Shown here piece after piece: positions 222 to 47,059 of a stretch of 64,000 nt of DNA. Source of the stretch: Bacteroidaceae bacterium (lineage in GTDB: Bacteria; Bacteroidota; Bacteroidia; Bacteroidales; Bacteroidaceae); the NCBI GenBank assembly GCA_017557635.1, contig JAFYYH010000020.1, positions 1 to 64,000 on the forward strand. Direction: 5' to 3'. Position numbers and translations under genes: made by a program. The notes beneath the pieces are model-generated. The model was not told the DNA's origin, ran no database searches, and saw only the letters and a list, made by a program, of their open reading frames with translations. Position 1 is the stretch's first letter; the number at the start of each line of letters is the position of its first letter.

Positions 222-254
222 AAGAAAGCCTCGAGCATCGCTCGAGGCTTTCTT
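222..254. terminator. Strong bidirectional terminator
   Basis: A perfect 15-bp stem (222-236 with 240-254) with a 3-nt loop lies between the rRNA end and the stop codon of the convergent giant gene at 260. On the minus strand it sits just past that stop and is followed by T-rich sequence (the complement of the A run at 221-223 and the T run before it). It can separate the two convergent units. Confidence 0.8.
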
Positions 255-259
255 GTTAT

Positions 260-3200
260 TTAGGGGATTGTAGGACCAACCTGGATGTTGGCTGATTCTG
301 TAACGTCGGCGTTGTTACCGCCACCATAGACGTTACCTGTAATTGTAGCGCCGTTTACAGTCTGTGATACGGTTTGTGTGATGGTGACGTTAGCATCGCT
401 GTTGCTGGTGTATTTGACAGCGTCTGCGCTATTTACTGTGGTCTTGCTGATAGTTACCGTCTCCTTGACCTTATCGCTGTTTCCAAGCGAATTGTACAAG
501 GTTCTCATACTCTTTAACTCAACCTGATCATTGAGTTTGTCACCTATAAAGACATTGGTGCTGCCTATTACCTTGGCTGAGTTGCCGCCGCCGTAAACGG
601 TTCCTATTACGCCGTCATTTGCTAATTGCTGCGGTCTCCCTTTGTATTGACTTAATGATTGTATTGTGCCGTTGTACTCGCCGTTAATCCATCCGTGAGT
701 GATGTTTATATCGACCTTGGGATTACCTACCATCGTGGCGTGAATACCGTTTCCTCCGCCATATACGGTGCCTATGCTTACGAATGATCGCAGGTTGAGC
801 AACGGGTCGTTATACTTGCTTCCGGATTCTTTCAGACCGTAATGGGTTATATTTTCTCCGTTGATGTTGACGGTGTAGGTTGAATCCTTGTAGCCGTATA
901 CTGAATAAGGTGCGTTATCGCCTCCCAGGTACAGTTCGTCGATGGTTATGGGCAGACATCCGGTCTGTTCTATGTTGACGGTTATTGAGCCGAATATCCT
1001 TCCGCCCTTGTTGTTGCCGCCGAATACCTTATCAAAGTGACCGCTTGATATAGTCAATTCAACATTGCTTCCTACATCGGCATTCTCGGAGCCTCCGTAG
1101 ATGGCTTCCATTCCTGTCAGGCAGCCTAGCTCGACCGATGTGCGGCCTTCCATGTATGCTGCTCGGCCACCGCCGTAGATTCCGTCAATCTGGAGTTCGC
1201 AATCGCTCAGTTCGTCAAGCATTGATACTGAGGCCTCGCGGATGTTACCCTTGGTATTGCTGCCGCCGTAGACGTAGTGTATGTGACCTCCGTATATGGT
1301 GGTTGAGGCCACGCCTGAACCGTAAACCAGGTGGTTCTGCGGATCAAGGCGGTTGGCTATATCGGCATCGGTAGTTCCTCCTAACGGACCATCCACATCA
1401 TAGTAGTGATAACCTACATTGGCACCGGGGTTGTCGTCACCGGCACCGTTACCGCCGCCGTATACATACATGATCTCCTTGGCACCGCTTATGAATACCT
1501 GGGTCGCGGGAGTGGATGCCGCGTTGCCGCCTCCGTAAACACTGTGGATGGTGACATCGTTACAACCGTCTATCCTTACATCGGTACAATCTGAGTTGTC
1601 TTGACTGATCCTATAAGGAACATACTCTGCCATGTTGCCGCCTCCATATACGGCCGATATCGCATAAGTATCGGAATCGGAGTTCTTGACGGTTTTTGAG
1701 ACGTATACCAGTACATGGCCCTTGGGCGTTCCGTTTATGTTGTTACAGCCGAATATTCGGCCCGACTGGGCTATTCCGTCGGTTATTACCGGAACCAGTA
1801 CGGCTCCCAGCTGGTAAACGGTTACATCGCCGTAAACTGTGGCTTCAATATCATTTTCGGGGTTCGCGTCCTTATAACCGCGGCCGCCTCCGTAAACATC
1901 TCCATTGATGGTTGCACCGGGGTAGAGGTTGACCTCGGTAACATGAAGGTCAGTGTCGATTGTCTGTTGGTCAATGATGTTTCCTGTGTTGGTATTGGCT
2001 TTCGCGCCGCCGCCGTATACATCACCTGTGATGACTGATTTTCTGACGTTGACCGTAACGCCTCCGGCTGCATCGGCCAACTGACCTCCTCCGTATACTT
2101 CGCCTATTGTCAGGGCGCAGAGCTGGTGGTTTGGTTCGGCCTGTTCCTGGATATCCACATCTATGTCACCGTGTACCGTTCCGCTATGGTCATTGCCGCC
2201 GAATACATAGCCTATATTGCCGCCGTATATGTTTACATCGGTTCCGTCATGGGTGACATCGGCGCCGTAACCGCCTCCAAAGACGTAGCCTATGCTGCCG
2301 CCGTATACGGTCACTCCGGTGCCTCTTACCGATGCCTGGTTGCCGCCGCCGTATACGTACTCTATCGTGTTATCGCAGCCGTGTATTCTGACAACGGGAG
2401 AGCCGTCGTATGTGGCCTGATTACCGCCTCCGAATACCTTTGAGATGGCGTAGCCGGACTGGACAGGATCGGTGGCGTTGATATCAACCGTAACGGTGCC
2501 CTGCGGAGCTCCGTTCACGTTGTTGCAACCGTAAACGTCGCCGCTTATGGTACCGCCGTCAACTATGACTTGGACGTTGCCGTTCACAAGAGCTGCATGG
2601 TCTGCGTCTCCCAGACCACCGCCATAGATACTGCCGTTGATGGTACCGCTCTTGATCCAGACTTTGGTCAGGTCCGATGTATCATCATTTACGTTACCCA
2701 AGGCAGAACCGCCATAGATGTCTCCAAATATAGTTGATCCTTGCAAGGTCACGGTGACGTTGCCGCTGGTGCCGGTAAGACTACCCAAACCGCCGCCAAA
2801 GATGTTGGCTGTCAATGCCTGTGCACCTATGGTACCTCCATTGAGCCGGACGTCTGTGTAACCGCCGATATTTCCGTTCGCATTACAGCCGCCGTAGACC
2901 CCGCCACTGATAAATCCTGATGTAAGTGTGACGGTCGTATTGCCTGCTACACCGGCCTGGTTACCTCCGCCGAATACCTTGAGGATACTCTGCTGATTTG
3001 ATTGAGCGACATTGTCAATGGTAACAAGAGTGTTGCTTCCTATTGATGAAGCGTCACCGCCTCCAAAGACACCTCCTCCGGTTTCGGTCAGGAGATTGTT
3101 TACCTGGCCATTCTCATCGTAAGTGTGGATATCACCCTTGACGTATGTATTGCCTGTTACAGTCAGATTTACATTGCTGACGACACCAAGATTCGTAAGA

Positions 3201-6200
3201 ACTTCAGGAGTATAAATTACATTAACTCCATCTTGAACTGCAATGGCAGACTGGCCGCTGGTAACTGCGTGTGTGGTCCATTTATATGCCGCCGAATCAG
3301 AAATGACAGCTGGCGTAAACAAACCTGCCTTTGAATTGTAAGTCGGGGGAGTGGTGAAGCCAGCCGATACGACATCGATAGTCGGTATTGTGGCTGAATA
3401 ACCTCCGCCAAATACGCTGCCATCCACTGTACATCCGTCAAGTGTAGATGTTGCGGTACCGTCAACTACTCCCAAACTGCCTCCTCCATAGAAATCTCCC
3501 GAAATATGGCATCCGGTCAATTGTGATGTGACATCATGTACTGTCGCTTTTGAGAATGAAGCATAATTAACGTATAGACGTCCCCAGATGGTTCCTTTAG
3601 ATCCGATGAAGTATTCATATTCAAATCCGGTAGCAATACCATTGTATGCAACTTTATTGACTACGCCCAGGTATTTACCTCTGTTATTGGTGTATTCATC
3701 ATCCCAAGTTGTCCAGGGCTGACTGTTCTCTGCAGTTTTTGCTATTACTCTATTATATGAGGCACCACCATAACCTGCGCCAAAGAAACGTCTGAACCGG
3801 CAGTCCTCGGCTGCAGTTTTTACTATCTTGCCGGAACCCATATCTCCGAACTTGGGACCTCCGCAATAGACATCAACATGGCTGTTCCTGATATTGACTA
3901 TAATATCACCGGTTATGGGTTTGGCGGCATTTATACCTCCTCCGTAGAAATTATCAATATCAGCGTAGTCTATATCCCAAACTACGTTTCCTTTAATCTG
4001 CTCCTGTCCGGCTCCGGCAACCTCACCGAATGAACCTCCGCTGATGTAACACTCTGCACCATCTGTTACCGCGTTGACATTCGGCTGGTAGATTCCTGAC
4101 AGGTAGAACTTTTCAAATCTGCCGCCTGTTACCGAAATGGGGTTATGAGGAGTGGGGTTGGTCTTATCCGAGTGTGATCCGTTATTGAATTCCTTGAACC
4201 ATACATTACCGCCCAGAATCATGTAGATTGTGTGACAGGTATAATTCAGTCCGTTACCGGAGTTGTTGGATACTATCTGATCCACTTCACCGCCTAATAG
4301 AATGAGTGGAGCATTGGACTTATTTTCATGATCATACTCAACCTGACCGAAATGGATAAGAGTGGTGTTTGTCACCTCAAACCATCCGTATGGCTTAAAT
4401 GTACCTATGCCGCACATTTTTGAGGAGCCATTGGGCTTTTGTGCCATTGATGTGCCAGGTATGTTTATGAAGTCAAATCTAATAGGCGAAACCTCTTTAC
4501 GGTCTGTATGGTGATAAATAAAACTGAAATCAGGCTCATTGTCATGATCAAAGTCTGCTGACATGACTGTAAATTGTTCATTGGTTTTATTTCGTGGTAT
4601 TCCGGATTGATGGTAATTGCCTGCTAATACGATTGCATTGTCAAAAACAGTAGACCCCTTGGAAGAAATAGAATTCAGAGCGCCATCGAAATTGTTGTAT
4701 ACTTTAAGACTGATGCCGTTTATTGTCTGATTGGTGTTGTTGCCATATTGTACCACTGTTACATTGGCTCCATTGTCAAAATCGGTGGTATATGTCTTGT
4801 CTAAATAATTATCTGATATGAAAGCCGCCTTAGCCCAATAGGGTTTGATGGTGATGGCAGTTACTCCAACAGGAATATCCAGATAGGCACCTTGCGAATA
4901 AACCCTGTAATTACCGTTTTCATCCATGGTACAAGTACGGTCAGCATAGTTGTAGGGCTTTACGCTAACCTCGCCGTCGGTAATAGTTGCATCCGAGCCA
5001 CTAACGGCTTGAGTGGGTGCTGCTCCCGTCATAGATGTGACAATCCATCCTGTAACAACCCGGTTGTTGTCCTCGCCATCCTGCTTGGTATAGTTACCTG
5101 AGCCGACATCATTGAAGTAGGGCAAGCGTACTTTATAGTAGTTATAATTGTATCTTTCAACGTCTTTGTCGGTAATGGGAAGATTCAAGGATCCTGTTGT
5201 TACGAATGTTCCCGTACGGCTTCCGTTACCACTGGCGTTATCTTGAATCGTTACTGCCAAAGTTCCGAATTTGCCTCCCTTGTTACGGTCCGATTCTGAA
5301 GGCTTGCCTCCTACCAGAGTCAATAAGGATGCATGCGCATCATCAAAGTTTATTATAGATGGATATTTGCCTTGCTGCTTAAGGATGGGATAGGGCATGG
5401 GATCCTGTATACTCAAATCAGCAGTTTCCAGCACCCACTTTGCCATATCGGTGGAATTGACAGTCGTACCTGAAGTGGAGGCATACCATGCTGCCAGTTT
5501 TTTGTTGCTGTTGAGTAACAGACGGTAAAACTCGTAGTGGATCAGATATTTCTCTTCGGCAGCAAGCGCACAATTGTATTTGTTGCTTGTAATTTGATTG
5601 TTCTTGCTGTAACCGGATTCATATCTGTAGTAGTTGTAGTTGTTTAAGCCATTATTATTGTTGTTATTCTTGTCGTTGGCATTATTGATGATATTACCTC
5701 CGTATACAGGAGACTTGTTTGTTCCACCTGTTATGTCGCCATAGAAAATGCAGTTCATTACCATTGTGCGGATGTCGCTGGACAATGATGCGTAATTGTT
5801 GTATCCCACTATGCCTCCGACATCACTACCGCCTTCAATATCAGCGTAACTGAAGCAGTTGATAACGCGTGAACCCTTACCTGCTTCACCTTTGTGGTCA
5901 AGCAAGCCGACAAGTCCGCCTGTCTTGCCTGTGCCGCTAACGCTGCCGGCCAGGATACCGCAGTTGTAGATTCGGCTTTCACCTTTTGCGTTCGATGCTA
6001 TGACACCGGCATTACCTTCGGCGGTGACGGAGGCATTGCCTATGATGACGTTCTTGATGGTGGCATCCTGGATATAGTCAAACAGAGGCTTGTTCCAAGT
6101 GCCTGTGATGGTTGTCAGACCACCGTCTATGATGCCGGTAAATGGTTTGGTTTCGGTTCCTATATTCTGACCGTCGTTGGAATCGATGGCTGTACCTGTT

Positions 6201-6415
6201 GTTGAGAATGTACTGCTAAGAGTATATGAACCGGCAGGGTCAGTAATGTCACTCAAAGAGTTGATGACAGTTTGGGCAAGTGTCGTGAAGGGAGAGAATA
6301 GCAATACAAGCAGCGTGACGGTTAGTTTTCGCACTGCTCGGGATATATTAATGCTGCAGTCCTTTTGTCCTCTAAATATCAGCATTAATAATAGGTTAGT
6401 TGTTAATGCCTTCAT
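260..6415 (-). CDS. Giant secreted YGGG-repeat protein 1 (2051 aa)
   Basis: This gene encodes a very large exported protein. The start gives a long n-region, then a hydrophobic segment ending in TLAQ (about residue 48), a plausible signal peptidase I site. Residues about 90-230 contain GLUG-like motifs (GGLVG, GGIVGYNN). The C-terminal 1230 residues (DNA about 260-3960) are dozens of copies of a unit of about 20-25 residues built around V-[YF]-G-G-G-N alternating with short beta strands such as VTVNGGTI. This suggests an elongated beta-helix or beta-solenoid on the cell surface. Its C-terminal half is clearly paralogous to the protein encoded at 6568-13677. I see no sorting domain at its C-terminus. 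I do not recognise a named family; a surface adhesin is an inference from repeats and from the upstream fimbrial genes. Confidence 0.85.
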   Translation of the reverse strand: MKALTTNLLLMLIFRGQKDCSINISRAVRKLTVTLLVLLFSPFTTLAQTVINSLSDITDPAGSYTLSSTFSTTGTAIDSNDGQNIGTETKPFTGIIDGGLTTITGTWNKPLFDYIQDATIKNVIIGNASVTAEGNAGVIASNAKGESRIYNCGILAGSVSGTGKTGGLVGLLDHKGEAGKGSRVINCFSYADIEGGSDVGGIVGYNNYASLSSDIRTMVMNCIFYGDITGGTNKSPVYGGNIINNANDKNNNNNNGLNNYNYYRYESGYSKNNQITSNKYNCALAAEEKYLIHYEFYRLLLNSNKKLAAWYASTSGTTVNSTDMAKWVLETADLSIQDPMPYPILKQQGKYPSIINFDDAHASLLTLVGGKPSESDRNKGGKFGTLAVTIQDNASGNGSRTGTFVTTGSLNLPITDKDVERYNYNYYKVRLPYFNDVGSGNYTKQDGEDNNRVVTGWIVTSMTGAAPTQAVSGSDATITDGEVSVKPYNYADRTCTMDENGNYRVYSQGAYLDIPVGVTAITIKPYWAKAAFISDNYLDKTYTTDFDNGANVTVVQYGNNTNQTINGISLKVYNNFDGALNSISSKGSTVFDNAIVLAGNYHQSGIPRNKTNEQFTVMSADFDHDNEPDFSFIYHHTDRKEVSPIRFDFINIPGTSMAQKPNGSSKMCGIGTFKPYGWFEVTNTTLIHFGQVEYDHENKSNAPLILLGGEVDQIVSNNSGNGLNYTCHTIYMILGGNVWFKEFNNGSHSDKTNPTPHNPISVTGGRFEKFYLSGIYQPNVNAVTDGAECYISGGSFGEVAGAGQEQIKGNVVWDIDYADIDNFYGGGINAAKPITGDIIVNIRNSHVDVYCGGPKFGDMGSGKIVKTAAEDCRFRRFFGAGYGGASYNRVIAKTAENSQPWTTWDDEYTNNRGKYLGVVNKVAYNGIATGFEYEYFIGSKGTIWGRLYVNYASFSKATVHDVTSQLTGCHISGDFYGGGSLGVVDGTATSTLDGCTVDGSVFGGGYSATIPTIDVVSAGFTTPPTYNSKAGLFTPAVISDSAAYKWTTHAVTSGQSAIAVQDGVNVIYTPEVLTNLGVVSNVNLTVTGNTYVKGDIHTYDENGQVNNLLTETGGGVFGGGDASSIGSNTLVTIDNVAQSNQQSILKVFGGGNQAGVAGNTTVTLTSGFISGGVYGGCNANGNIGGYTDVRLNGGTIGAQALTANIFGGGLGSLTGTSGNVTVTLQGSTIFGDIYGGSALGNVNDDTSDLTKVWIKSGTINGSIYGGGLGDADHAALVNGNVQVIVDGGTISGDVYGCNNVNGAPQGTVTVDINATDPVQSGYAISKVFGGGNQATYDGSPVVRIHGCDNTIEYVYGGGNQASVRGTGVTVYGGSIGYVFGGGYGADVTHDGTDVNIYGGNIGYVFGGNDHSGTVHGDIDVDIQEQAEPNHQLCALTIGEVYGGGQLADAAGGVTVNVRKSVITGDVYGGGAKANTNTGNIIDQQTIDTDLHVTEVNLYPGATINGDVYGGGRGYKDANPENDIEATVYGDVTVYQLGAVLVPVITDGIAQSGRIFGCNNINGTPKGHVLVYVSKTVKNSDSDTYAISAVYGGGNMAEYVPYRISQDNSDCTDVRIDGCNDVTIHSVYGGGNAASTPATQVFISGAKEIMYVYGGGNGAGDDNPGANVGYHYYDVDGPLGGTTDADIANRLDPQNHLVYGSGVASTTIYGGHIHYVYGGSNTKGNIREASVSMLDELSDCELQIDGIYGGGRAAYMEGRTSVELGCLTGMEAIYGGSENADVGSNVELTISSGHFDKVFGGNNKGGRIFGSITVNIEQTGCLPITIDELYLGGDNAPYSVYGYKDSTYTVNINGENITHYGLKESGSKYNDPLLNLRSFVSIGTVYGGGNGIHATMVGNPKVDINITHGWINGEYNGTIQSLSQYKGRPQQLANDGVIGTVYGGGNSAKVIGSTNVFIGDKLNDQVELKSMRTLYNSLGNSDKVKETVTISKTTVNSADAVKYTSNSDANVTITQTVSQTVNGATITGNVYGGGNNADVTESANIQVGPTIP

Positions 6416-6434
6416 AGAGACAATGTATGCGACG

Positions 6435-6442
6435 TAAAGATA
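6435..6442 (-). promoter_or_regulatory. Possible -7 element for giant protein 1
   Basis: On the minus strand TATCTTTA lies about 20 nt before the start at 6415, one base off the Bacteroidales -7 consensus TAnnTTTG. No clear -33 element is seen. Together with the terminator at 6507-6540 it suggests that this giant gene is transcribed separately. Confidence 0.35.
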
Positions 6443-6506
6443 GCCATAATTATTCTATTGGGTTTTATTAATATACTAGTTTTTTTGCTTTTTTTGAAAC
6501 AAAATA

Positions 6507-6540
6507 AAGGAAGAAGGACCTGTAGGGGCCCTCCTTCCTT
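6507..6540. terminator. Terminator downstream of giant protein 2
   Basis: Arms 6507-6520 and 6527-6540 form a 14-bp stem with a 6-nt loop. On the minus strand the two odd pairs are G-U wobbles, so the hairpin is best as a minus-strand RNA, placed 28 bases past the stop at 6568. It is followed there by a short T-rich stretch. Confidence 0.75.
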
Positions 6541-6567
6541 GACTTTTTTGTTATTGTTCGGTATGCG

Positions 6568-9500
6568 TCAGTCCTCGCGACCTACATTGATGTAAGTCTT
6601 GCCGGTTACATCTGCCTCATTACCACCTCCGTAGATGTTTCCGGTCACTGTCGCTCCGTTTACATTCTGGATAATGGTTCTTGTCAATGCGGGTGAGTTC
6701 TGTCCAAGTACAGTGTACTTTATGCTCTTGCCATCATCTGACAGTTCAAATACCATACCACCTATAGTAAACTTTCCGGTTTGTGAAGCCTGGATCTTTG
6801 CCTTTATGGCATTGAGGCTTGCCATTTCTACGGTTGGCTCATTTGCTACATTGATGGTTGTATAACCAATTACCTTAGCCTTCTTTCCGCCTCCGAATAT
6901 TGTGTCTATTACACCGTCATTAGGCAACAACTGAGGAGCTGCATGATATATACCATATGGGTCATTATCTCCGTGGCCGCGGTACTGACCGTCAACCCAA
7001 CCGGAGGCGATGTTGGCATTGATTGTAGGATTGCCGGCAAGTGTTGCTCCGGCACCTTCACCACCTCCGAATACTGTACCGACCGTCTTGAATGACCTGA
7101 GGTTGATAACAGGATCTGCGTATTTGCGTTCTCCTGATTCAATAATGTTTCCACTGGAGTTGTAACCATAAACCGAGTAGGGGGCGTTGTTACCACCCAG
7201 GAACAACTCACCAATCTCTATCGGCAGACAACCTGTCTGCTCAATGTTGATGGTTATGGAACCGCGAATCTTACCGCCGATGTTGTTGCCGCCATAAACC
7301 TTGTTGTATTTTCCGCTTGTCAGGGTCAATACGATGTTGCTGCCTACATCGGCATTCTCGGCACCACCGTATATCTCATGCAAGCCGCTTATGCAACCTA
7401 ACTGTATATCTGTCTTTCCCTCCATGTAAGCGCTCTTTCCGCCTCCATAGAAACCGTCCAGAACCAGATTACATGAGCTTTCCTCGTCAAGCATGGCAAC
7501 TGTCGTTTCACGTACATTTCCCTTGGTGTTACTACCACCGAATACTTTATGGAGCCTACCTCCGAATATCGATGTCTTGGCTACACCGGAGCCATAAATA
7601 TAACCTGCACGGGCAGCAATCTGATCAGGACCGGAGATATTGTCCGGATAAGCGTAATAACCGACGTTGGCACCGGGGTTGCCTGTGCCGGCACCGTTAC
7701 CGCCGCCGAATACATATTCAATCTCGTAAGCACCCTCAACCGTGACATCTGTGGCAGGTGTGGATGCTGCGTTACCGCCGCCATATACGGAATGTATACT
7801 TACATCACCGCATCCGTTAATGAATACCTCGGTCGATCCGTTTGCCAGATCGTCGGGGACGTATGCGGCATGGTTACCGCCACCGAATACGGCTGCAAGT
7901 TCATAGGTGTGATCGTTTTCATCATCCGTATTGCGATCAGCGTCACTGCTGCGTTCCTGAACGCCACTGATACCTGTGGTCTTGTAAACTACCACCCTGA
8001 CGTGGCCCTTAGGCGTTCCATTTACGTTGTTGCATCCGAATATCATACCAGATGAGGGCAGACCTTCGGAATATACTGCTTTGAGTGCGGCTCCGTATTG
8101 GAGAACATCGACATCGCCATATACAATAGCCTCGGTATTATCATCTCCCAGACCGCCACCGTATACGTTTCCGTCAATTGTGCCGCCGTAGAGGTTGACC
8201 GCAGTCTTATTATATGCGTTGTTCTGGTTTTCTGTATAATTAGTGTTGACAGTACCCAGTGCTGAGCCTCCATATACATCACCATAAATTGTGGCACCTG
8301 CGGTAGAACCGCTCTGTCCGATGTTTACGGTAACATTTCCGGCTACTCCTGTCAGCTGACCATAACCGCCGCCATGGATGTTGGCATGTTTGGCATTTGT
8401 ACCTACAGTACCTCCCAATATGGTGACATAACTGTTACCGCCTATTGTTCCACTACTATTGCAACCACCGTATATGCCGCCGGTGGCATCGGTTACATCG
8501 GTATTACCTACAGTGCCTGATGTAAGTTGTACTGTTGCGTTGCCGCTTACGCCGGCCTGATTACCGCCACCGAATACCTTGGTGCGTACTGTGCTGCTGT
8601 TGCCTATTGCAACCTGTGTGTTACCGGTTACAGGTGCGGCATCACCACCGCCATATACGCTACCGTTAACAATTACGGTCTTTCCGCTGGATCCTACAGT
8701 TACCACGGGATTACCGGTAACTGTAGCACCCGGACCCTTACCGCCTCCAAATACATCAAGGCTAACTGTGCCGTTTAAAATGTTTACTTCAGGATCACCG
8801 GGATAGGGGGCGTTGTTGCCACCGCCAAATACGTTACCAACGTACCATCCGCAATTGTTATTGTTCTTGTTTATATTAACAACTATGTCTCCATAGACAG
8901 TGCCGCTGGTGTTGTTGCCGCCAAATACGTTGGCAATCATTCCGCTGTTGATATTCAGCGTAATATTGGAGTGATTTTGGGCTGTTCCGATACTTGCCTG
9001 GTTGGCTCCTCCGTAGACTGAACCGATACCCTCAAGTGTCTTACCAATGTTGCCCGGATTAGCTGCATGACCATTCTCTCCGGTTTCCAAGGCTCCGGTA
9101 CAACCTATAGTGATGCTGCTTGCATTTCCATTGGCCTTGTTACCACCTCCGTAAACCTCCTGAATGATCATGTCACAATCATCGGTTCCGGTGGCTTGGC
9201 TCTTATCAATTTCAATGGAACCGCCTTCACGTATTACACCACTGGTGTTACTGCCACCGAATACCTGATAGATAGTGCCTCCGTAGATATGCGCCTCGGC
9301 TGTGCCGGCACCGTATGAGTTTGTTGTTGTGTTACTCTTGTAGCCTACGTTAGCTGTACCACTCTCTCCATTACCTCCGGCAAATACACGGTAGATATCA
9401 CCTCCATTGATTGTAACATTCGTATAGGGTACAGCTGCTGCGTTACCTCCGCCATAAACATCCCTGATGCTTGAATTACAGCCATTAATGGTAACTGTAG

Positions 9501-13677: not shown

Positions 13678-13687
13678 ATCACAACTA

Positions 13688-14863
13688 TTATTTGTTCGAC
13701 ATTTTTGTCAGTCTGTATATATTGGCGTAGGATATTGCCAAAGCCACAGAGAGTATTATGTATGTGTTATCTGTAAGGTGATGCGGCCATAGAAGCATTA
13801 CCAAAGCCCAGATAAGAATTACAAAAGCATAGGGTATACACCATTTCTGTCTCCACTTCCAGAATATCAAGGGGAGCGGATTGAACGGGATTATGAGCCA
13901 ACTCCATTCTGTGCAAGGCAGAGAGGAGAAGAATACCAGATATATGGTTATCAAGCCCAGTATGGTTTGTGCTGCCAAGAGCACGTAATCCATTATGTTG
14001 GATTTATATGCTGCACAGAATATGGTGAGCAACAGAAGCAATATGGATAATACAAAAGGAGTAAATAGGCAGGGCTTGATAACATGATTGCCGGGAAGTA
14101 CCGTTGTGGGTAGATCCTGCATAAGAGGCTTGCCTTGAACTGTGGCGTTCTTTAACACCTCAATCAGATCAGCCGGCATAATTACTTTTTCAATCTTGCT
14201 GCATGTGGCGTCTATCTCACCATTACATATAAGATTCATAAAGCACCATGTCCACGGAACGTTCTTCATTTGGATCTCAGTCAGTTCCCTGCGTGAAAGA
14301 CTGAAGGTTTCGGGCCATGGACCGAATTCCAATCGCAGGGAGTCCATCCCTTCCATGAGAATTTTGAGCGTACTATATGCACATCCGCGTTTCATGTAGT
14401 CATATGGCAGATCCATACCCTCCATAAGGTGGTTGTCAAGTACTCGCCACAGGTTTCGTTTAACCTCTATGGGCAGATATAAATTGTACTCCTTAACTTC
14501 GCGTCCATCAGGCCTGAACATGTCCAGATAATCCTGATAGGGAATGGCGGCCATACCCATCTTTAGCTTGCCGGCAAGGAATCGTAGAACTTTTCCTTCT
14601 ACCCCCTCTGATTCGTATGAGAAGACATAGTCAAGATTGTGCTCGGGGCACTGCATGTGGATGCCTACGTGACCTACGGTGGAGTAGAGAACATCGCCTG
14701 GGTCTGCAATGATGATTGATGCTATTACAAAGTTTGAGTCAACTTCCTCGGGCACTTGCTGTGTTTGGGCGTTAACTGTACTTTGGGGCAAGAAGAGGAA
14801 TGCTATAAGCATCATAGCATACAGCAACAGCGTTGTTCTGCCTTGTACAGTCCTTATTCTCAT
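13688..14863 (-). CDS. DUF4105 (Lnb N-terminal periplasmic)-like membrane protein
   Basis: The 391-residue product has an N-terminal hydrophobic signal (cleavage near VNAQ) and a periplasmic domain of about 230 residues. That domain has a VGHVGI motif (His) and a RGCAYST motif (Cys), in the order seen in DUF4105/Lnb-N proteins, a family related to papain-like NlpC/P60 hydrolases. Four or five membrane segments follow (about 265-385). The last part, near WPHHLTDNTY, sits in a loop. It lies 50 bases after the 3831-residue giant gene and 10 bases before the next, so it belongs to the same unit. A role in processing or anchoring the giant proteins or in envelope remodelling is inference; a catalytic function is suggested only by the His and Cys motifs. 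Confidence 0.75.
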   Translation of the reverse strand: MRIRTVQGRTTLLLYAMMLIAFLFLPQSTVNAQTQQVPEEVDSNFVIASIIIADPGDVLYSTVGHVGIHMQCPEHNLDYVFSYESEGVEGKVLRFLAGKLKMGMAAIPYQDYLDMFRPDGREVKEYNLYLPIEVKRNLWRVLDNHLMEGMDLPYDYMKRGCAYSTLKILMEGMDSLRLEFGPWPETFSLSRRELTEIQMKNVPWTWCFMNLICNGEIDATCSKIEKVIMPADLIEVLKNATVQGKPLMQDLPTTVLPGNHVIKPCLFTPFVLSILLLLLTIFCAAYKSNIMDYVLLAAQTILGLITIYLVFFSSLPCTEWSWLIIPFNPLPLIFWKWRQKWCIPYAFVILIWALVMLLWPHHLTDNTYIILSVALAISYANIYRLTKMSNK

Positions 14864-14913
14864 AAATATCGGTTGCTCGTAGGTGCAAATCTTGTCGATT
14901 ACGCTTTTATAAC

Positions 14914-17900: not shown

Positions 17901-20900
17901 TGTAAACACCTGTTGCATCATCTGGCTCAGAATAACTGTAACGGTAGATGATGGTGAATATACGGTCCTCGGTAAAGTCATATATGTCACAGTCACGTGA
18001 TACGTATAGAGCAGACTTTTCACGCGGGATGGAGGCTACAACTTCAAACTTCTCCTGATAGTTTACAAGGTCATTATATTCTGACTCAGGGATAAGAGTG
18101 TGGGCTTCAACGACTGTACTGCTGTTAGGCTTGGTGTAACCGTCAGTGCAGAGGTAGAATGTAACAGCACCACCGCTTGTCGGGCCGTTTACGGTCTTGG
18201 TGGCACCATCGTTGTATTGGTAACTATATATGCCGGACCCTTCTGTGTGTCTCAATGTCAGAGTAGAAATGAAATACTGCTTGTCCAGATCTTCCAGGTT
18301 GTTATAGTCAGTAGTGCTGATTACCTCACCGTAATTGTATACACGTCCAGCCTTACCGAATTCCTCGGATACAATGTACAGGGTGGTGGAGGTGGCATTC
18401 TCACCCCAATCCTGAGTATTTGTATTTAACTGAACGTACTTTCTCTTCTCGTTGGCTAACTGCTCAAACTGCTCTCGTGAATATGTTGTTCCGTTGGTTA
18501 CAGCGAGTGAGAAGCCTGTATTTCCGTAACCATACAGGGTAGTGTTGGTTCCTGTGTATATAACCTTGTAGTCAACCTGCTGTATACCAGAGTAGAGAGT
18601 GGTGTCGGCGTGGTCATAAACCCTAATGTTACCTGCATATGTAGGATCAAGCATGACATCCAAACCGTCGTAGTTGAAACTGAAGTTTGCACGCTCAGTG
18701 GGATTAAGGTTGGTGTACATTGCAGCCTGATAGTTCTGACCGCTGGTGAAGGCAGAACCGCCATACTTACCCTTCTTGGTGCAATAGTATGCTCTGGGAT
18801 ATCCGTTGAAAGTCAAGTTAGGCTCGGTTCCGGTAGTGGTTATCTGCTGCGGATAGTCATGAGCATAATCCTTGAGTTCCTCATAAGAGTAAAGCTGGTC
18901 AGAACTCAACAGCAACTTGTCTGTCAGTTTGATGGTTTCCAAACCGATGTATGCCTTTGCAAAGTATGACTTCTGGGTATTATCGGTAATTGAGTCATAT
19001 CTGCTCTGAGGAATAGCACTACGCTCAACAACGTGATAGTGTTTGTCGCCTACGGTTATATCGCAGGTTGTAAGTGCCATATAAGCAGGCTCGAATTCGG
19101 CTTGATCCTCCAGGTTGTCAGTTGCGTGACCAAGTCCAATGTATTTGTCAACAAATCCCTTGTCAATCAGATCTGATACTTCATAATCAGACTGGCCGAA
19201 AATGTATGATGTGTTAGCTGCACCGTTAAGATGATAGGTGGGGCCAAGTTTATATGTAGCCTGAGCTGCTGCATCAAGCAAACCATATGCCTTCTTACCT
19301 ATCTTAGTGGAACTGTTGGTTGCATGGGTGTAGTATTCATCCCAACGCTTGGGCTGGTCAAGTGATACTGCAAGCAGATAACCATTGTCGTGGTTAAGGG
19401 CATTGTTGAGTCTGAATGCGCGGTCCTTTTTTATCGATTCAGCCTTGTTGTCATACCAATCTGTCGCCAGTGCTGAATACTGGGTAGGTGTTAATACATC
19501 TCCCTTAGAATAGGCTGGTGTTCCGGCTGCCTCAGCGAGTGCCTCGGAGGTATAAACATCGGCTACGCAGACATAAGTTGCATCAGTAAAGTACTGCTTG
19601 TCATGTGATGACAGGTTGTAGTAGTCCCAATAACTTATGGGTGAATTGCTGTAATAGGTTATTCCATTACAGATCACACTATCCACACGTTCAGTATGGG
19701 TGTTGTCTTTGTATGGGAACTGTGTGGCATCGGCGTACATGCTGGTCTTGATATCCTCAATGAACAGCTTGGCATTACCCTGAGCCAGAATGGTAAGAGG
19801 TATGCTTACGTTCTCAATGTATGCCTGAGCAGATCCGGTATAGGCCGATATCTCCTGATTATAGACGTAGAAGTCACCCTTGATGAACCAGTAGTGAGCC
19901 TCGGAATATTCATCTGCATGATCCTCATAATAACTGTTGGCAGTGGGGAAGCACTCGTCTATGATTGTCTCGGTTGACACAAAGTTACCGGAGGTCTGCA
20001 TCCAACTGTTTGCAGTGGCAGAAGTAGAGAGTGACCGTGTATAGTCATAACCTCTGTATGTGATAGCTCCCTTGTTGGATTTAGCCAGAATCAGATGTTT
20101 CTTGTTGTTCTTGCTCTGAGTACCGTGAACGTTCTTGGCATATACATAACCGCCACCCTCACCGGTTGCAGCGGCTATAAGGTTAAGTTGTATGATACCT
20201 GTAATAGGACCGTAGTTCTTCTCATCACCTACGTAGTTACGTGAAGGCTCCTGCAGAAGTTCCAGATATACACCCGATGCCAATGCGACCTCATTATGGC
20301 TGATACCTCTGTTACGGTTCTGCTTACCTTTCTTGTCTGCTTTGAAATCATAGTAGCTGACATCGGCGGCATTCTTGCCTTCCATCTTACTGGTGAATTC
20401 CAGGTCTGATGTCAAAGCACCCAGATAGTTTACAATATTGTAAATACCAAAGTAGTTACCATGAGTTGAGTCTGCAACCATTGTCTGGTGCAAGGCAACC
20501 TCACCTACGCGGTTAATGGTATAGTTGGTGTAGTCAACCTCGGCAGGTACACGGTCACGCGCGCCCTTCATAACCATACGGCTTCCGAATACACCGCAAT
20601 AGTCAGCACGCTGTACGGTGTTCATCATACGGCCGGCATAGATACTGCAGACACCTGTTACCTCAAAACAAGCCTTGTCTTCGTCTGATAACTTTTCATA
20701 ATCCTCGGATGTTATCTTGGCGCCTACAGCATACTGGCTGGTTGCTGTCTTACATCTGTATTCCAACTGGAAATATGCTCTTTCACGGTCATTCAGTTTG
20801 ACGTAGTCACTGTAACTGATACGCTCGGTAAGGCCGTAGTAGTCGGTTCCATAGTTGGTGATGTTAAGTTCACGGTATCCGTCCACGAACGTAAGGTTAC

Positions 20901-23900
20901 CATCACCGTACAGACCGCCTATGCCCTCCTGACCAAGAGTGATAAGGTCCATGCAGTACAGGTCAACAATTGATGCTGTAGCGTTACCGAATACTGTCTT
21001 GGCCTCGGCGTACAGAAGGTCAGAACCCTGACTCACGTTACCGCCTGCAAATACCGCATTCCTGATAATGATACCGGTCTTTATGTCAATCTTGGTTGAA
21101 TCAAGATCCGATTTCTTTACGATTTTGTTCAGTACTCTAGTGGGAACATAATCGGCCGGAACGTATTTGCCGTTGACTTTACGTGCGCCCCAGTAAGTGG
21201 TGTCATCAATTACTATTGACATTCCGTCCTTGACGCGGCACCAAGGTGATACAACGACTTTACTGTCCTCGGTAAACTGTTTCTCATTTCCGGCAAGATC
21301 CCATGTCCCGTCTGCCTTTACACGGTAATAGTAACCGTCAGGCGTTTCATTTTCATTCTGGGCTACAGTCCATTTCTTGCCGACTTTGGTATATACATAA
21401 CCAATGTTACCGCCGCCGAATACATTACCCTCACCGTCAAGAAGAGTCTTGGGAGTACCGATGACACCGCCGTAAACGTTAGCCTCGGTCTGTCCGAATA
21501 CATAACCGTCAGTGTAACGCCTTGTGGTACTGTACGCGTAATTCTCAGCCTTGGTGGCACTGTATCCCTTACCGCCGCCAAATACATTCTGCTGGATGTT
21601 ACCTCCGTATATTGTGGCGCTGGCCAATCCAGCTTTGTATATGCCCTTTAGTTCACGGACAGAGTTTGCTGTTCCGCTCTCTTGGGTTTCACCACGACCT
21701 ACAGCTGCAATCTCACCGCCACCGTATACACTGTTGCGGATATAGCCGTCATATATTGTTACGATGGTGGTGTCGGCATAACTGCCGTCATCATAACCGC
21801 CCCCGAATACATTGCCATGCTCAATCAGGTAGTTGCGTCCTATTCCGTCATCTGCGGTTTCATCATCCAGTTTTTCCTGATACTTCTCATTGATATCAGT
21901 GTTAGGATTATCAACAGCGTCTGCAAAATAGCGATAACCTATATATCCATTATGTACGGTTACGTTGGCAGTACCGATAACACCGCCACGCTCGCCGGCT
22001 CCGTATGCATTCCATTCTATGGCCGGAACACCTTTGTAGAAACCGTAGTCAGTTATTCCCATAATGTCAGCCTCGGACTTTGATATACCGATGATTACAT
22101 TCGAGGTACCGAAATTATCCTGGTCCAGGATTGCCTTCAATGCGGCTGCATCGTTCAGCAATGTCTGGTCTACACTGAAAGGAAGATCTGTATGACCTAT
22201 GTTGCCCTTCCAGCCGCCGCCGTAAACACGTCTTACCTCACCGCCTTCAATAAAGGCATTTGAAACAGGTCTGAATCCGGCACCATACAGGTCACGGACA
22301 TCACCGCTCTCACCGGCTGCGTATAGGTCTTTGGATACTATACCTCCGTGCAGGCCAATGTAGGTAGCTCCGCTTACGTGTGCCTCCTTACCACCGCCGT
22401 ATGCGTATCCGCCAACATATGAACCCTTGTTGAAGTATACGTTGGTGTTGGTGATGGTATCAAGTTTGTTTGCATGGGCAAGGTCATTGTCAAGCATTGT
22501 CTGAGCAGCCTGCGTATCATAGTCGCTGCCCAGAATATCATAAATTTGAGCACCGTTGTGCTGTCCGGGATATATGGTCTTCCACTTTGTGAAAGATGCC
22601 TTGTTAAGTACGTTACCCTTATCACCGCCACCATAGACCATGTAAACGTTGGCGCCGTCATTCATGTTCACCTCAGTGTAGTATGACCATGTGTTGGCAC
22701 CTTTACCGCCTCCGTAGATGTAACCGGTGTAGTTTACGTTTTCAACTTTTTGACGAAGTTTTGACGAAATGTTGATCTGGCTGTAAAGTGTACGGCGGCA
22801 GTTGTTGTTACCTCCGTAAACAGCGCCCTTTATTACGGCATCCGGGCTGTTGTAGTTTACTACGGTCTCAATGGCATCGCAAGGAGATGTTATTGTATCT
22901 CCGTAGCCGCCACCGAATATGTTGGTCAGAAGAATGGATGAACCGTCTGGTACATTTACTATCGCACGACGGGTAACACCTTCACTGAAACTTGCTCCAT
23001 ATGCATTCAGGAACTCTCCGTTTATAAGGTCAACAACTGCTGTAACAGACTTGAGGTCATTGTGAGCCTGCTGAGCTTCAAGTCTCATACCTGTTCCGCA
23101 GTTTGCTCCACCTCCAAATATCTCGGTATTGGCAAAGTATCCCTTGTTATCCTCAACGTCTACCAGGACATAACTGCGGTCCTGCATCTTGTCCTGGACG
23201 TTATTTGCGGATGATGTACCCTCGCGACCCTCGCCGGCACCGAATATCTTGAGAACGGCATTGTTTTCTTCGTCTACAGGAATGAAGTTTACAAAGGCGT
23301 TGGCAATATACGGAGCGGTATGATCATGGTTCATCTGGTCGTAATCATATGCGCCGCATGAACCTCCAAACAGATAGTTGGCTATGTCTGCCTGCTGATA
23401 TTCAACATAAGCCGATGCATTTGTAACGTAAGGAGTTGCCTGTGCATCGGGGTTGTAAACCATAGTTCTTTTGGCTACAGGAATCCTGTTGTAGAAACTG
23501 TTGGAGCCGTTGATGCGGCCGCCAAAATCATTACCTCCGTAAACGTTACCCAATACTTTGGCAGATCCGCTCTGACCTGCACCCAGATAGGTTTGGGCAT
23601 AGCCTGTTATGTTTGCGTTGCAGGCGCCTCCGAATACGTAATATGCTGTACCTCCGTCAAGGTTAACAGTTGAATTGCCTGTTACGGGCCCTTCAAAACC
23701 ACCGCCGTAAAGTCTTCCTACAAAACTGTTTTCACCGTAAAGACTGACAGTCGTGCTGCCGTCAACAGTTCCGCCATAGCCTCCGCCGAATACCTTAAGA
23801 GCACCGCCGCTGCTTGAATTTTCACTGTCATGAATCTTGACAGTGGTGTTTCCGTGAACGGTAGCGCTTGTGCCATATCCTCCGCCGAACACGCTGAATG

Positions 23901-26409
23901 GCGTACTGAACAGGTTGCCTGCACTTGTGAGGTATGTACGGCATGCTTCTTCACTGTTAAAGTAGGTGCCGGGTATGATATCCTCCTTAAGGTCAATAGT
24001 GACGTTTCCTTCAATGATACCGCTCTCAAAGCAACCACCAAAAATGTTACCCTGATTTCCTACGAGTGCATTATCGGCGGGATTAAAGATAATGCCGTCA
24101 ATGTCAAGGTATATTTTGTCGTTATTTGCCGAATTGGGTGTGCCGGTAAATCCTCCTTCGTGGCGGTCATTATATGTGTCGGCCGCTACGAATGCAGTGT
24201 TACAACCGCCTACAAGCTTGTTTGTCAGGATGATGGGCTTGGAGAACTTGATGTCAAACAGGTTCTGTGATATCATACTGCCCACGTTACCGCCGCAGAA
24301 GAAAGAACCCACCTTGGCCAACTTGGCCTTGTCGGCTGCAGTCTGGGCACTCTGAGGATAGGAACCGTCAAAGTCAAGTGTGGGCTGACATGATACGGCT
24401 GTACCCATCATGTAGGCATCAAATGTACCATTGCCGTCCTTGAAGTTCAGGGTGCTGATGCTGTCGCCGGAATACTTTTTTAAAGTGGATTCGGTTATCA
24501 TGTTGGCACCGTTACTGCCCAGGAATATGTTTCCTATCTCTGTGTAAACTCCAATCTGCAGTTTTATATCATCGGATACCGTAGTACTGTTACCGCCTCC
24601 ATAAAGGGTCTGTACCACTGTAGGATGTTCCTCGGTACCGGCTATGTGGATGTAAGTTTTGCTGGTACTGGGACGGAATGCGTTCAGTGCGTCTATTGAT
24701 GAGCCGTTTTGGGGAACGGCATAGTAGAAGTCGCCATATACTGCACTGTTCTTAAGAGCGTCCAGGTCAGTGTAAACGTATGAACCGTTACCTCCACCGT
24801 AAACCTCACCGTTTATGGAACTGAGTATCTCAAGCGCTGTACCGCCATAAACGTTACCTGAAATATCGTTACCGCCGTAGACGTTGTTGATTGTGCCTGC
24901 GGTGATAAGGATTCGTGCCGAATATCCTGCGGGGTAGTTGTACTGTGTGCCGTTTACGGTATATGTCTGGCTGGAAATATCGTTGCCTGATGGAGCAACA
25001 TTGGCTATACGGCAACCGCCGTAGACATTGTTGACTGTAAGGTTGCTGCTGGTAAGTGCCAGGAACAGACCTGTGCTGTTGGTCATATCGCCGGCATCAC
25101 CGCCCGAGTAAAGGGCGTTAATGTTACCTTTCTCAAGATGCCAGTCAGGATGAATTGACATGGCAGCCTGCTTGTTGCCGCCGAATACACGGTCAAACTG
25201 ATATCTGAGGGTCGCGGTCTGGTTGGCGCCGGTCCCGCTAAGAGTATATGCACCTTGGTCAACATCCAGATTGATGCCCATACCGCGCAGTTTTGCGGCA
25301 TCAAGGGTAGCAAGAGTCTGTGTTGAGTTGTTCAGACATAAAACGGTCGAACCCGTAACGGTTGCCTGGTTGCCACCTCCGTAAACGTAACCAAAGTTAC
25401 CTCCGTCAAGTTCCAGGTATACTTTACCTACCAAAGGCTTGGTCGACAATGAGAACTGATATGACGGTGTAACCCAATCGTTCTGGGTATTGTCCCAGTG
25501 TCTGTCCGTGAGAGTGCTCATTGTGTAGGCACCTTCGGTCCCGCCATAGGTGTAATCACCGTTACCTCCGCCGAACAACTGGCCTACGTAGATGGTCCTG
25601 TTTGAACTGCCCGAAGCATGAACGAACGAGTTCCAGGTCTTGTCTATTCCGTATCCGCCCTCACCGATGGCAGTCGTGGCGGTCTGACTGATTACAGAAG
25701 GAACCTGAAGGTTTTGGATCCAAACCCATGTATTGTCCGTCTGTGAAGGTATGATGATTGAACCTCCAATATCATTACCTCCATATACGGCATTGATGAT
25801 GAGGTTGTTGGTTGCCTGTGCTCCGTTAATGTCCACCAGACTGTAACCGTAAATGTCTGCTACTCGTGCTCCGCCGTAAACGGTGCTTCGGATATCGCCT
25901 CCCTTAAGGATTACTTCGGTTGAACCAACCAGATTGGCCTGGTTGCCGCCTCCGTAAATATTCTGGTAAACGGTACCGCCTTCCATCGTAACACTGCTGT
26001 GTCCGAATACATATGCTGAAAGACCGTCACCGGCGCCGAATACACCACCGTGAATTGTGTTGTCCCAATCGGGATTGCCTACTGTACCGCCGCTTATGGT
26101 CACTGAGGTACTTCCGTATACACGACCGTTCTCGCCGCCGCCGAATACTGTACGGACTTCTCCGCTGTTGATGTTGATGTTTGTGGCGGTATTAGTTGAT
26201 TTGAGGCTTATATGCTTAACATTTTCTTCATCAGGATTGTTGGCATTGGCTGTACCCACTGCACCGTTGCGTCCGCCGCCGTAGATATCGCCGCCAATGG
26301 TTATGGACTGTGCGTGGGCTGCTAAACAGCCAAACAACAACATTCCTGCCAGCAGAATCATTCTGTCAGGTCTGAAAGATAATATATTGTTGCGAGTCCT
26401 CATAATCAT
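14914..26409 (-). CDS. Giant secreted YGGG-repeat protein 3 (3831 aa) with a second repeat type and a sorting-like C-terminus
   Basis: A signal peptide ends at AAHAQ (about residue 34). Residues about 35-1680 (DNA 26300-21380) are YGGG/FGGG units. A different region (DNA about 20830-18040) contains about nine copies of a short motif of the form I-S-x-x-D-Y-x-x-L-x-x-x-D-K-x-Y-F, each followed by strand-like sequence. A GLUG-like stretch follows (DNA about 17220-16850). The last 90 residues end in a segment with VTITSVSGKLLKQF and GVYIV, which resembles type IX secretion (Por) C-terminal sorting domains. Among the three giants only this one shows such an end. It begins 16 bases after the last fimbrillin gene. 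The function is unknown; an outer-surface adhesin or fimbria-associated protein is inferred. Confidence 0.85.
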   Translation of the reverse strand: MIMRTRNNILSFRPDRMILLAGMLLFGCLAAHAQSITIGGDIYGGGRNGAVGTANANNPDEENVKHISLKSTNTATNININSGEVRTVFGGGENGRVYGSTSVTISGGTVGNPDWDNTIHGGVFGAGDGLSAYVFGHSSVTMEGGTVYQNIYGGGNQANLVGSTEVILKGGDIRSTVYGGARVADIYGYSLVDINGAQATNNLIINAVYGGNDIGGSIIIPSQTDNTWVWIQNLQVPSVISQTATTAIGEGGYGIDKTWNSFVHASGSSNRTIYVGQLFGGGNGDYTYGGTEGAYTMSTLTDRHWDNTQNDWVTPSYQFSLSTKPLVGKVYLELDGGNFGYVYGGGNQATVTGSTVLCLNNSTQTLATLDAAKLRGMGINLDVDQGAYTLSGTGANQTATLRYQFDRVFGGNKQAAMSIHPDWHLEKGNINALYSGGDAGDMTNSTGLFLALTSSNLTVNNVYGGCRIANVAPSGNDISSQTYTVNGTQYNYPAGYSARILITAGTINNVYGGNDISGNVYGGTALEILSSINGEVYGGGNGSYVYTDLDALKNSAVYGDFYYAVPQNGSSIDALNAFRPSTSKTYIHIAGTEEHPTVVQTLYGGGNSTTVSDDIKLQIGVYTEIGNIFLGSNGANMITESTLKKYSGDSISTLNFKDGNGTFDAYMMGTAVSCQPTLDFDGSYPQSAQTAADKAKLAKVGSFFCGGNVGSMISQNLFDIKFSKPIILTNKLVGGCNTAFVAADTYNDRHEGGFTGTPNSANNDKIYLDIDGIIFNPADNALVGNQGNIFGGCFESGIIEGNVTIDLKEDIIPGTYFNSEEACRTYLTSAGNLFSTPFSVFGGGYGTSATVHGNTTVKIHDSENSSSGGALKVFGGGYGGTVDGSTTVSLYGENSFVGRLYGGGFEGPVTGNSTVNLDGGTAYYVFGGACNANITGYAQTYLGAGQSGSAKVLGNVYGGNDFGGRINGSNSFYNRIPVAKRTMVYNPDAQATPYVTNASAYVEYQQADIANYLFGGSCGAYDYDQMNHDHTAPYIANAFVNFIPVDEENNAVLKIFGAGEGREGTSSANNVQDKMQDRSYVLVDVEDNKGYFANTEIFGGGANCGTGMRLEAQQAHNDLKSVTAVVDLINGEFLNAYGASFSEGVTRRAIVNVPDGSSILLTNIFGGGYGDTITSPCDAIETVVNYNSPDAVIKGAVYGGNNNCRRTLYSQINISSKLRQKVENVNYTGYIYGGGKGANTWSYYTEVNMNDGANVYMVYGGGDKGNVLNKASFTKWKTIYPGQHNGAQIYDILGSDYDTQAAQTMLDNDLAHANKLDTITNTNVYFNKGSYVGGYAYGGGKEAHVSGATYIGLHGGIVSKDLYAAGESGDVRDLYGAGFRPVSNAFIEGGEVRRVYGGGWKGNIGHTDLPFSVDQTLLNDAAALKAILDQDNFGTSNVIIGISKSEADIMGITDYGFYKGVPAIEWNAYGAGERGGVIGTANVTVHNGYIGYRYFADAVDNPNTDINEKYQEKLDDETADDGIGRNYLIEHGNVFGGGYDDGSYADTTIVTIYDGYIRNSVYGGGEIAAVGRGETQESGTANSVRELKGIYKAGLASATIYGGNIQQNVFGGGKGYSATKAENYAYSTTRRYTDGYVFGQTEANVYGGVIGTPKTLLDGEGNVFGGGNIGYVYTKVGKKWTVAQNENETPDGYYYRVKADGTWDLAGNEKQFTEDSKVVVSPWCRVKDGMSIVIDDTTYWGARKVNGKYVPADYVPTRVLNKIVKKSDLDSTKIDIKTGIIIRNAVFAGGNVSQGSDLLYAEAKTVFGNATASIVDLYCMDLITLGQEGIGGLYGDGNLTFVDGYRELNITNYGTDYYGLTERISYSDYVKLNDRERAYFQLEYRCKTATSQYAVGAKITSEDYEKLSDEDKACFEVTGVCSIYAGRMMNTVQRADYCGVFGSRMVMKGARDRVPAEVDYTNYTINRVGEVALHQTMVADSTHGNYFGIYNIVNYLGALTSDLEFTSKMEGKNAADVSYYDFKADKKGKQNRNRGISHNEVALASGVYLELLQEPSRNYVGDEKNYGPITGIIQLNLIAAATGEGGGYVYAKNVHGTQSKNNKKHLILAKSNKGAITYRGYDYTRSLSTSATANSWMQTSGNFVSTETIIDECFPTANSYYEDHADEYSEAHYWFIKGDFYVYNQEISAYTGSAQAYIENVSIPLTILAQGNAKLFIEDIKTSMYADATQFPYKDNTHTERVDSVICNGITYYSNSPISYWDYYNLSSHDKQYFTDATYVCVADVYTSEALAEAAGTPAYSKGDVLTPTQYSALATDWYDNKAESIKKDRAFRLNNALNHDNGYLLAVSLDQPKRWDEYYTHATNSSTKIGKKAYGLLDAAAQATYKLGPTYHLNGAANTSYIFGQSDYEVSDLIDKGFVDKYIGLGHATDNLEDQAEFEPAYMALTTCDITVGDKHYHVVERSAIPQSRYDSITDNTQKSYFAKAYIGLETIKLTDKLLLSSDQLYSYEELKDYAHDYPQQITTTGTEPNLTFNGYPRAYYCTKKGKYGGSAFTSGQNYQAAMYTNLNPTERANFSFNYDGLDVMLDPTYAGNIRVYDHADTTLYSGIQQVDYKVIYTGTNTTLYGYGNTGFSLAVTNGTTYSREQFEQLANEKRKYVQLNTNTQDWGENATSTTLYIVSEEFGKAGRVYNYGEVISTTDYNNLEDLDKQYFISTLTLRHTEGSGIYSYQYNDGATKTVNGPTSGGAVTFYLCTDGYTKPNSSTVVEAHTLIPESEYNDLVNYQEKFEVVASIPREKSALYVSRDCDIYDFTEDRIFTIIYRYSYSEPDDATGVYKNVSERHILNIRVHFESGEPIIGELLAPSKLLPGSIIGLTKPSVQKGAFEVLGGGWELYENENNALTHKNGVPYENYVTPMYWYQNQWYVAYYAETYLGRTFSNAVPFTIANYHNIDDVMADTVNHLHIDHPSIKNNSRVYIDNRAASSDNTKSKLDLLYDLFDLSLQPHGQTELRDELGNIVTDDNGNHVMVDNYDISYTRNNELKNKHHALNSHIKGLDNLEIILNSDVQPLKYTGNGGWKQVGTSAQCFEGTLHGNGYTISGIDKSLFGYLCGDVFNLGVRGTIAGSGIADNGDGYAQNCWLINDSQADLHSYAAILNSGTIVNSYYNDESAKNTDAGYAYASGGAISKPMSSFINGEVAYNLNGFYLNKRYEDKSNNGEPYWYYTIDEDDNTLSEPTEGRTSVNNHGTLYVEKYYMDGQYVYAGGSIPSGLSERYSDKEGKHYPIYPDDYIYFGQKLTYGIANTGSAAHDVQPTAITRTIITGGAQRVDDALTGNRVYRAPAYYGSSVMGKAYYNRNAAFAATYNGIDAYAGMTAIDFSGYDINNNPTNGASQENFYKPILDFNGLLRFNVQDLTQNLLVYVTGQNTVLTDALSDNEPTLTYPTSGNKAIATVTPQNVDKVKGHLVTKINNAYVADASHFLVDKQDFNAPISYSFPSGMYMWYQRLPEQYVNSMDGGWEAISLPFTAQLVTTQTKGEITHFYTGSKIGHEYWLRNYSTVNTTDNKVEFSSLSAGSTNKEVTNTFLWEYYYSKNSKKDANQDDYQTYYNQTRTYTDYPLYQAGTPYLIGFPGSRYYEFDLSGNFSAQNTATTAPATVPKQTITFVSTAGQQIAITDNQYIVTADNDGYAYNPIYQTKTVNHAYLLSDNGTKFEQQASAATVPFRAYLTKTSSGAPRRLETRAAADPSILYISNPSDNDQMEQIVVDRGLNAYAQGMAICIESTLDIPATVTITSVSGKLLKQFTIQPATKVTVPVNSRGVYIVNHNKIAVTK

Positions 26410-41450: not shown

Positions 41451-41468
41451 ACAAAAAACTAAAGATAA

Positions 41469-43226: not shown

Positions 43227-43238
43227 CCCGCTATAGCT

Positions 43239-44558: not shown

Positions 44559-44585
44559 TACCATTGGGGACGGTTCCGTTTGGTA
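44559..44585 (+). promoter_or_regulatory. Hairpin between atpB and atpD
   Basis: TACCA (44559-44563) can pair with TGGTA (44581-44585) around an inner GGGA/TTCC stem, followed by CTGTTTTTAG. It could weaken readthrough or shape mRNA stability between the head and stalk genes. It contains the 11-mer GGGACGGTTCC (44567-44577), also found in the inverted repeat at 58193-58260. Confidence 0.4.
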
Positions 44586-44598
44586 CTGTTTTTAGATT

Positions 44599-47039: not shown

Positions 47040-47059
47040 GAATTGAAAATTGAGAATTA
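47027..47059 (+). repeat. Short AATTGAGA-type tandem repeat
   Basis: Four near-copies of GAATTGA(G/A) overlap the last codons of atpI and continue into the gap before atpK. Such AT-rich repeats are common between Bacteroidales genes. Confidence 0.7.

Follow-up and report, generated by a model that had tools for sequence, protein, structure and literature searches.

The window analysed here, a stretch of 64,000 nucleotides from a Bacteroidaceae bacterium, carries a gene run that on balance appears to encode a module for the tip adhesin of a type V (fimbrillin) pilus, exported by the type IX secretion system (T9SS). The run ends in three giant proteins that carry YGGG-type motifs, here called rungs. 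One giant (class A) starts on a rung and ends in a probable T9SS sorting domain. The other two (class B) start with a head and end on a bare rung.

Gene run with pilus genes and giants

The window begins at a contig start, and the source genome (G000) is 2.44 Mb in size and rated 89% complete. All genes of the run are on the minus strand. In transcript order, a DUF5119 gene is followed by eight fimbrillin-type genes (P0012 to P0005), and then by P0003, P0004, P0002 and P0001. Together they look like an operon-like run ending in giants. The run spans 37.7 kb, corresponding to 1.5% of the assembly. The coordinates, the strand and the lengths of the three giants (2051, 2369 and 3831 aa) given in the earlier note were reproduced exactly, as was the presence of eight genes (346-517 aa) and the DUF5119 gene upstream on the same strand.

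The run is opened by P0013 (36734..37969), the DUF5119 protein and a possible pilus base. At its head lies a divergent plus-strand gene (38248..39462) with an AraC-type helix-turn-helix domain, which is a possible regulator. Pfam Mfa_like_1 was found over its cut-off in four of the six proteins scanned: P0012 (35207..36355), P0009 (31659..32699), P0008 (30386..31468) and P0006 (27653..28789). The P0006 family also matches a solved fimbrial protein (PDB 3sy6, E 0.0013). P0011 (33955..35145) and P0010 (32721..33917) were outside the Pfam scan and are included in the fimbrillin profile made in this analysis. P0007 (28813..30366; 517 aa) and P0005 (26426..27616), the latter lipoprotein-like, show no fimbrillin match in Pfam and are fimbrillin-like by position and size only. 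The best match of the P0005 family to a solved fimbrillin is not significant (E 0.17). Judged from the predicted products, this row of several fimbrillin-fold lipoprotein genes is a type V pilus gene cluster. The Bacteroidales fimbrillins (Mfa_like_1, PDB 3sy6) are matched by P0006 and others, whereas the giants match none of them.

Most gaps between pilus genes are 16 to 61 bases, with the exceptions of P0009/P0008 (190 bases) and P0013/P0012 (378 bases). The gaps are 10 bases between P0002 and P0004, 50 between P0004 and P0003, and 152 between P0001 and P0002. P0001 is probably the last gene of the run, because it is followed by a terminator-like hairpin (222..254; a pattern match only) and by a 5S rRNA (1-101; Rfam). 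Beside the 5S rRNA, positions 150-215 by eye repeat its end sequence and are perhaps a 5S remnant; Rfam lists only 1-101. At its other side, the run adjoins what appears by eye to be a V-type ATPase operon (window 40069-47529), and several congeners have this neighbour too.

P0004 (13688..14863, minus strand; 391 aa) is an accessory gene. An acyltransferase called Lnb is described for Bacteroidota (PMC13103446). P0004 contains both Pfam Lnb domains over their cut-offs, and it scores 86.8 bits against NF051878, for which the cut-off is 550. It is thus regarded as a divergent Lnb (DUF4105-type) paralogue. One may guess that it acylates pilus lipoproteins. A close relative of P0004 (56%) is present in one of 36 congeners (G031), and a further Lnb-like gene of the source genome is only distantly related. 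Across the genus, the other Lnb-like gene (G000:C9:30179-31120, L008 and congeners) is mostly contained in frames of ~840-1140 residues; several other families have frames of ~400. The greater length would fit a fusion of Lnb with an additional domain.

Rungs and architectures of the giants

Strict [YF]GGG is present in 20 copies in each giant. In 300 residue shuffles, the expected number has a mean of ~0.5-0.65 and a maximum of 4. Chance and low complexity are therefore ruled out as the source of the rungs. No copy is present in P0004-P0013. The repeats seen in the earlier note are real, but its description of the giants as built mainly of a 20-25 residue unit is too strong. Even with a looser motif, the first 975 residues of P0002 and the last ~1280 residues of P0003 contain no rung. 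Across the family, no more than 22% of the distances from one rung to the next fall within 15-30 residues.

The rung region belongs to no named family, as had been supposed: sequence searches against Pfam, NCBIfam, PHROGs and the PDB returned no relative of it. No paper on YGGG giants was found in the open-access PMC literature, which implies no absence elsewhere. Residues aligned on the rungs show short hydrophobic stretches between the glycines. This pattern is compatible with, and no proof of, a solenoid fold, and from it we infer that the rung region is a putative beta-solenoid.

The three giants do not represent one uniform family, as two architectures are present. Class A is defined by a core profile corresponding to residues 1775-2230 of P0003 (14914..26409, minus strand; 3831 aa). 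In P0003, the first rung comes just after the signal peptide. Of 82 distinct class A proteins, 75 have their first rung in the opening 70 residues. The first rung of class A is about as conserved as the last rung of class B, with a mean entropy of 1.42 bits.

Class B includes P0001 (260..6415, minus strand; 2051 aa) and P0002 (6568..13677, minus strand; 2369 aa). Here the head comes first. The first YGGG is at a median residue of 1074 (range 16-2672), beyond residue 200 in 39 of 43 proteins. The proteins stop 16-24 residues past the last YGGG in 43 of 45 cases. Class B numbers 45 in this count of ends and 43 in the sorting-domain count, from which frames open at the 5' end were left out. The mean entropy of the last rung is 1.56 bits, versus 2.66 ± 0.05 bits for random inner rungs. 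Among the six rungs counted from the end, conservation is highest in the last, as rungs -2 to -6 show 1.87-2.31 bits.

The heads of class B-type proteins were scanned with Pfam in a sample of 46, consisting of whole P0002 plus 45 pieces from the N-terminus, each no longer than 950 residues, chosen among 64 downstream frames at 80 loci. M26_N was found in 34, CHB_HEX_C_1 in 27, Fn3_assoc in 27, and RicinB_lectin_2 in 10. P0002 has Fn3_assoc and CHB_HEX_C_1, and P0001 has only a weak, sub-threshold match to M26_N. These domain names suggest a role of the heads in adhesion or sugar binding.

Six further giants with other ends constitute class C, and five of them share one conserved tail. The longest class C frame (G007:C104:35259-70847, loci L071 and L072) has 11,862 residues and rests on one MAG contig. 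It contains 224 loose YGGG-type motifs and is the final gene of the same pilus run. It shows a rung right after the signal peptide, and its tail is common to four other giants. Other large frames have 6,260 (G008), 6,442 (G019) and 7,949 (G021) residues. A survey of UniProtKB treats proteins of more than 5000 residues as huge, and neither Bacteroidota nor Bacteroidetes is mentioned in the portion of it drawn on here (PMC11573180). An artefact of MAG assembly is ruled out for classes A and B by their presence in the complete genome of Prevotella communis E15-14 (L163).

A smaller second version of the run is seen at G031:C93:3672-17377 and G003:C165:2312-17093. It includes P0006- and P0005-type genes, a short class A gene and a further giant. 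The class A proteins of this version have only 1859 (G031) or 1904 (G003) residues, with a sorting domain.

P0003 has a weak, putative T9SS type A sorting domain at its C-terminus. The end of the protein scores 22.4 bits against TIGR04183, just under the cut-off of 23, and the whole protein 15.2 bits. TIGR04183 matches 31 of 40 family ends, scanned from 69 usable ones and counted by E <=0.01 and not by cut-off. A sorting-domain profile of the family matches 80 of 82 class A proteins, a figure that is circular for class A because the profile was built from 40 family ends. The two proteins with no match have unlike ends; they are from L108 and L130, loci in which the gene is shortened or broken into two frames. 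None of 43 class B proteins matches this profile, and no sorting domain was detected by NCBIfam in P0001 or P0002. The host has the T9SS translocon SprA over its cut-off (G000:C11:27826-34956). In two genomes, an extra class B-type giant (G035:C72:1779-11483 and G003:C37:7629-12701) is divergent from an apparent T9SS run, which we take by eye to be PorP-K-L-M-N.

Polymorphic toxins were set aside as an explanation of the giants. The giants are constant at the C-terminus and variable at the N-terminus; the usual plan of polymorphic toxins is the reverse.

Distribution, the P0005 partner and single-chain forms

Scanning 84,980 species genomes with class A gave 263 confirmed stretches, of which the best 80 were kept. 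The best 80 of 263 loci are labelled as Prevotella, Prevotellaceae, Bacteroidaceae or Bacteroidales, and ruminants appear in many of the titles. Among these best 80 of 263, a P0005-type gene is located directly upstream of class A in 76 of 78 frames. In the two exceptions (L130 and L135) the class A gene is broken into two frames, and the first half has the P0005-type gene upstream. In two more of the 80 (L146 and L161), the DNA stops short of the core and the P0005-type gene is present, and L167 has no upstream gene. The gap between the two genes is at most 92 bases in the 78 cases measured among the best 80 of 263 loci. Within the stretches read at these best 80 of 263, a downstream gene on the same strand with at least four rungs is present in 56 of 78 loci.

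The same pairing is observed in the genus, whose genomes overlap in part with the 80 loci and are not an independent sample. All 15 genus contigs read have a P0005-type gene upstream of class A. Of 37 genomes, 14 have class A, and exactly these 14 also have P0005-type matches over 150 bits. The best P0005-type match among the other 23 congeners is a contig-end piece in G012 (85.9 bits). Fisher's test for this co-occurrence gives 1.6e-10, not corrected for kinship. P0005 is a partner gene dedicated to class A. Class B or C gives strong matches (E <1e-40) in 16 of 37 genomes, namely the same 14 plus G004 (62% complete) and G023 (82% complete), in which class B ends are present and class A was not found.

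The patchy presence in the genus cannot be taken entirely at face value. Contig breaks within the pilus run are seen in many congener assemblies. Among the 23 congeners in which class A was not found, six (G006, G010, G012, G015, G025 and G026) have a contig that stops within this pilus run. The contigs of G004 and G011 stop within ~0.5 kb of the neighbouring gene. The count of 14 in 37 for class A is therefore a lower bound. In G017, rated 100% complete, the absence of class A looks true.

In an order sample of 393 genomes, class A is strong in five, with a sixth match in G396 (E 3.6e-4). The class B end is strong in six and weaker in four (G144, G211, G237 and G385). Neighbourhoods were read in G000, G244 and G376, and not in G147, G247 and G329. 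The earlier note had tied the rungs to fimbrial neighbours. This is contradicted only in part: five of the six genomes with a strong class B end also have class A, but G376, G237 and G385 are contrary cases.

The sixth genome is G376 (rated 100% complete). Two class B genes are followed there by a gene for a class A-like protein of 3822 residues. This protein has an early rung and a sorting domain that scores 50 bits, and the class A core profile does not match it. In the stretches read, G376 shows no match to the fimbrillin profiles, which indicates that pili are not obligatory for the A/B pair. In G244, the class B gene and the pilus run are divergently oriented.

G237 encodes a single chain of 3459 residues. 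Its residues 382-1161 match residues 400-1233 of P0002 (34.6%, E 3e-94), a region of which ~575 residues are rung-free. Onward, the chain contains rungs, a Cleaved_Adhesin domain and a terminal sorting domain over its cut-off (41.4 bits). A P0002-like start of the same kind is found in G385 (E 1e-86), where the contig ends before the chain does. No pilus genes are present in the stretches read in either genome. The middle of the single chain resembles the class A core by eye; the core profile gives no match, and this likeness was rejected. Compared with the window, these proteins have the same P0002-like head followed by YGGG rungs, in one chain and not two. Since head, rungs and sorting domain are in one chain in G237, classes A and B look like a split version of it. 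The idea that A and B join rests mainly on this chain, which does not show the mode of joining.

Proposed tip adhesin and its alternatives

P0003 is similar to Mfa5 of the Mfa1 type V fimbriae of Porphyromonas gingivalis in being a large non-pilin protein that is encoded with pilins and appears to have a T9SS sorting domain. In the part of PMC7835359 drawn on here, Mfa5 is the sole fimbrial protein with a T9SS signal domain, is T9SS-dependent and is located at the tip. According to the same part (PMC7835359), Mfa5 has 1228 residues and a von Willebrand domain, whereas P0003 has 3831 residues and YGGG rungs, and Mfa5 is not described there with class B-like partners. No von Willebrand factor A domain was found in P0003 (Pfam, E <=1) or in 29 C-terminal parts (E <=0.1). 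P0003 thus works like Mfa5 at most and is not classed as Mfa5. SprB of gliding Flavobacterium is also a giant, repetitive, T9SS-exported adhesin, and in these traits would be like P0003. To our knowledge, SprB is not encoded with pilins, unlike P0003.

Because P0003 shares its genetic position and apparent signal type with Mfa5 and SprA is present in the host, P0003 is proposed to be a T9SS-exported tip carrier. The lipoprotein pilins would form the stalk, perhaps on a base made of the DUF5119 protein. P0003 would cross the outer membrane via T9SS through its C-terminal sorting domain, as Mfa5 does, and would be held at the pilus tip by P0005. P0001 and P0002, with signal peptides and no sorting domain, would also have to cross the outer membrane. 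Their bare, conserved last rung would stack on the first rung of class A, which is likewise bare, and this stacking would make the gene-split rod continuous. The lectin-type or chitobiase-type heads would face outward and bind glycans. Such end-on docking of class B on class A is put forward tentatively, from the sequences of the two ends. It is possible, at a similarly tentative level, that one class A carrier on the pilus tip displays, and perhaps exports, docked and swappable class B or class C solenoids, whose heads are exchanged by gene swap.

The idea in the earlier note of giant adhesins tied to type V pili is supported by the gene order, the co-inheritance of the P0005-type gene, the probable T9SS domain on one giant and the adhesin-type heads on the others. 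A somewhat unlikely alternative is that P0003 and class B are separate adhesins, sharing an operon and a regulator with the pilus genes and attached neither to pili nor to each other. The A/B pair of G376 and the lone single chain of G237, neither with a fimbrillin match in the stretches read, indicate that giants can manage without pili, and attachment of the giants to pili or to one another is a prediction from the genes. However, a P0005-type gene accompanies class A wherever the loci are readable, in the 80 loci and in the genus, and the 23 congeners negative for class A have no such gene or just a fragment at a contig end. The fused form in G237 is a further argument that head and sorting domain are parts of one whole.

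The same fused chain bears on whether class B exports itself, with the last rung and short tail as an undescribed secretion signal and with A and B acting side by side. The conservation of the last rung above the other five and its fixed distance from the end would fit such a signal, as would the other conserved tail in five of six class C giants. We know of no secretion signal of this kind, and the G237 chain has an ordinary sorting domain instead; self-export is considered improbable. A surface layer around the cell, also suggested in the earlier note, found no support and is very improbable. Large size and repetitive sequence are all that speak for it, while the adhesin-type heads, the location in a single gene run with pilins, and the absence of giants from some congeners, such as G017, rated 100% complete, speak against it.

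The proposed tip adhesin module would raise a question for T9SS, namely how proteins of thousands of residues with no sorting domain reach the surface. The system is open to study, as three of the best 80 of 263 loci come from records of strains without a MAG label: P. communis E15-14, Prevotella sp. tc2-28 and Prevotella sp. tf2-5. If the proposal is true, the module would represent a novel design for a very long adhesive, with the tip split over several genes. It would be a recognisable, very large attachment apparatus for Prevotella and related gut bacteria, and would account for the open frames of up to 11,862 residues found in them.
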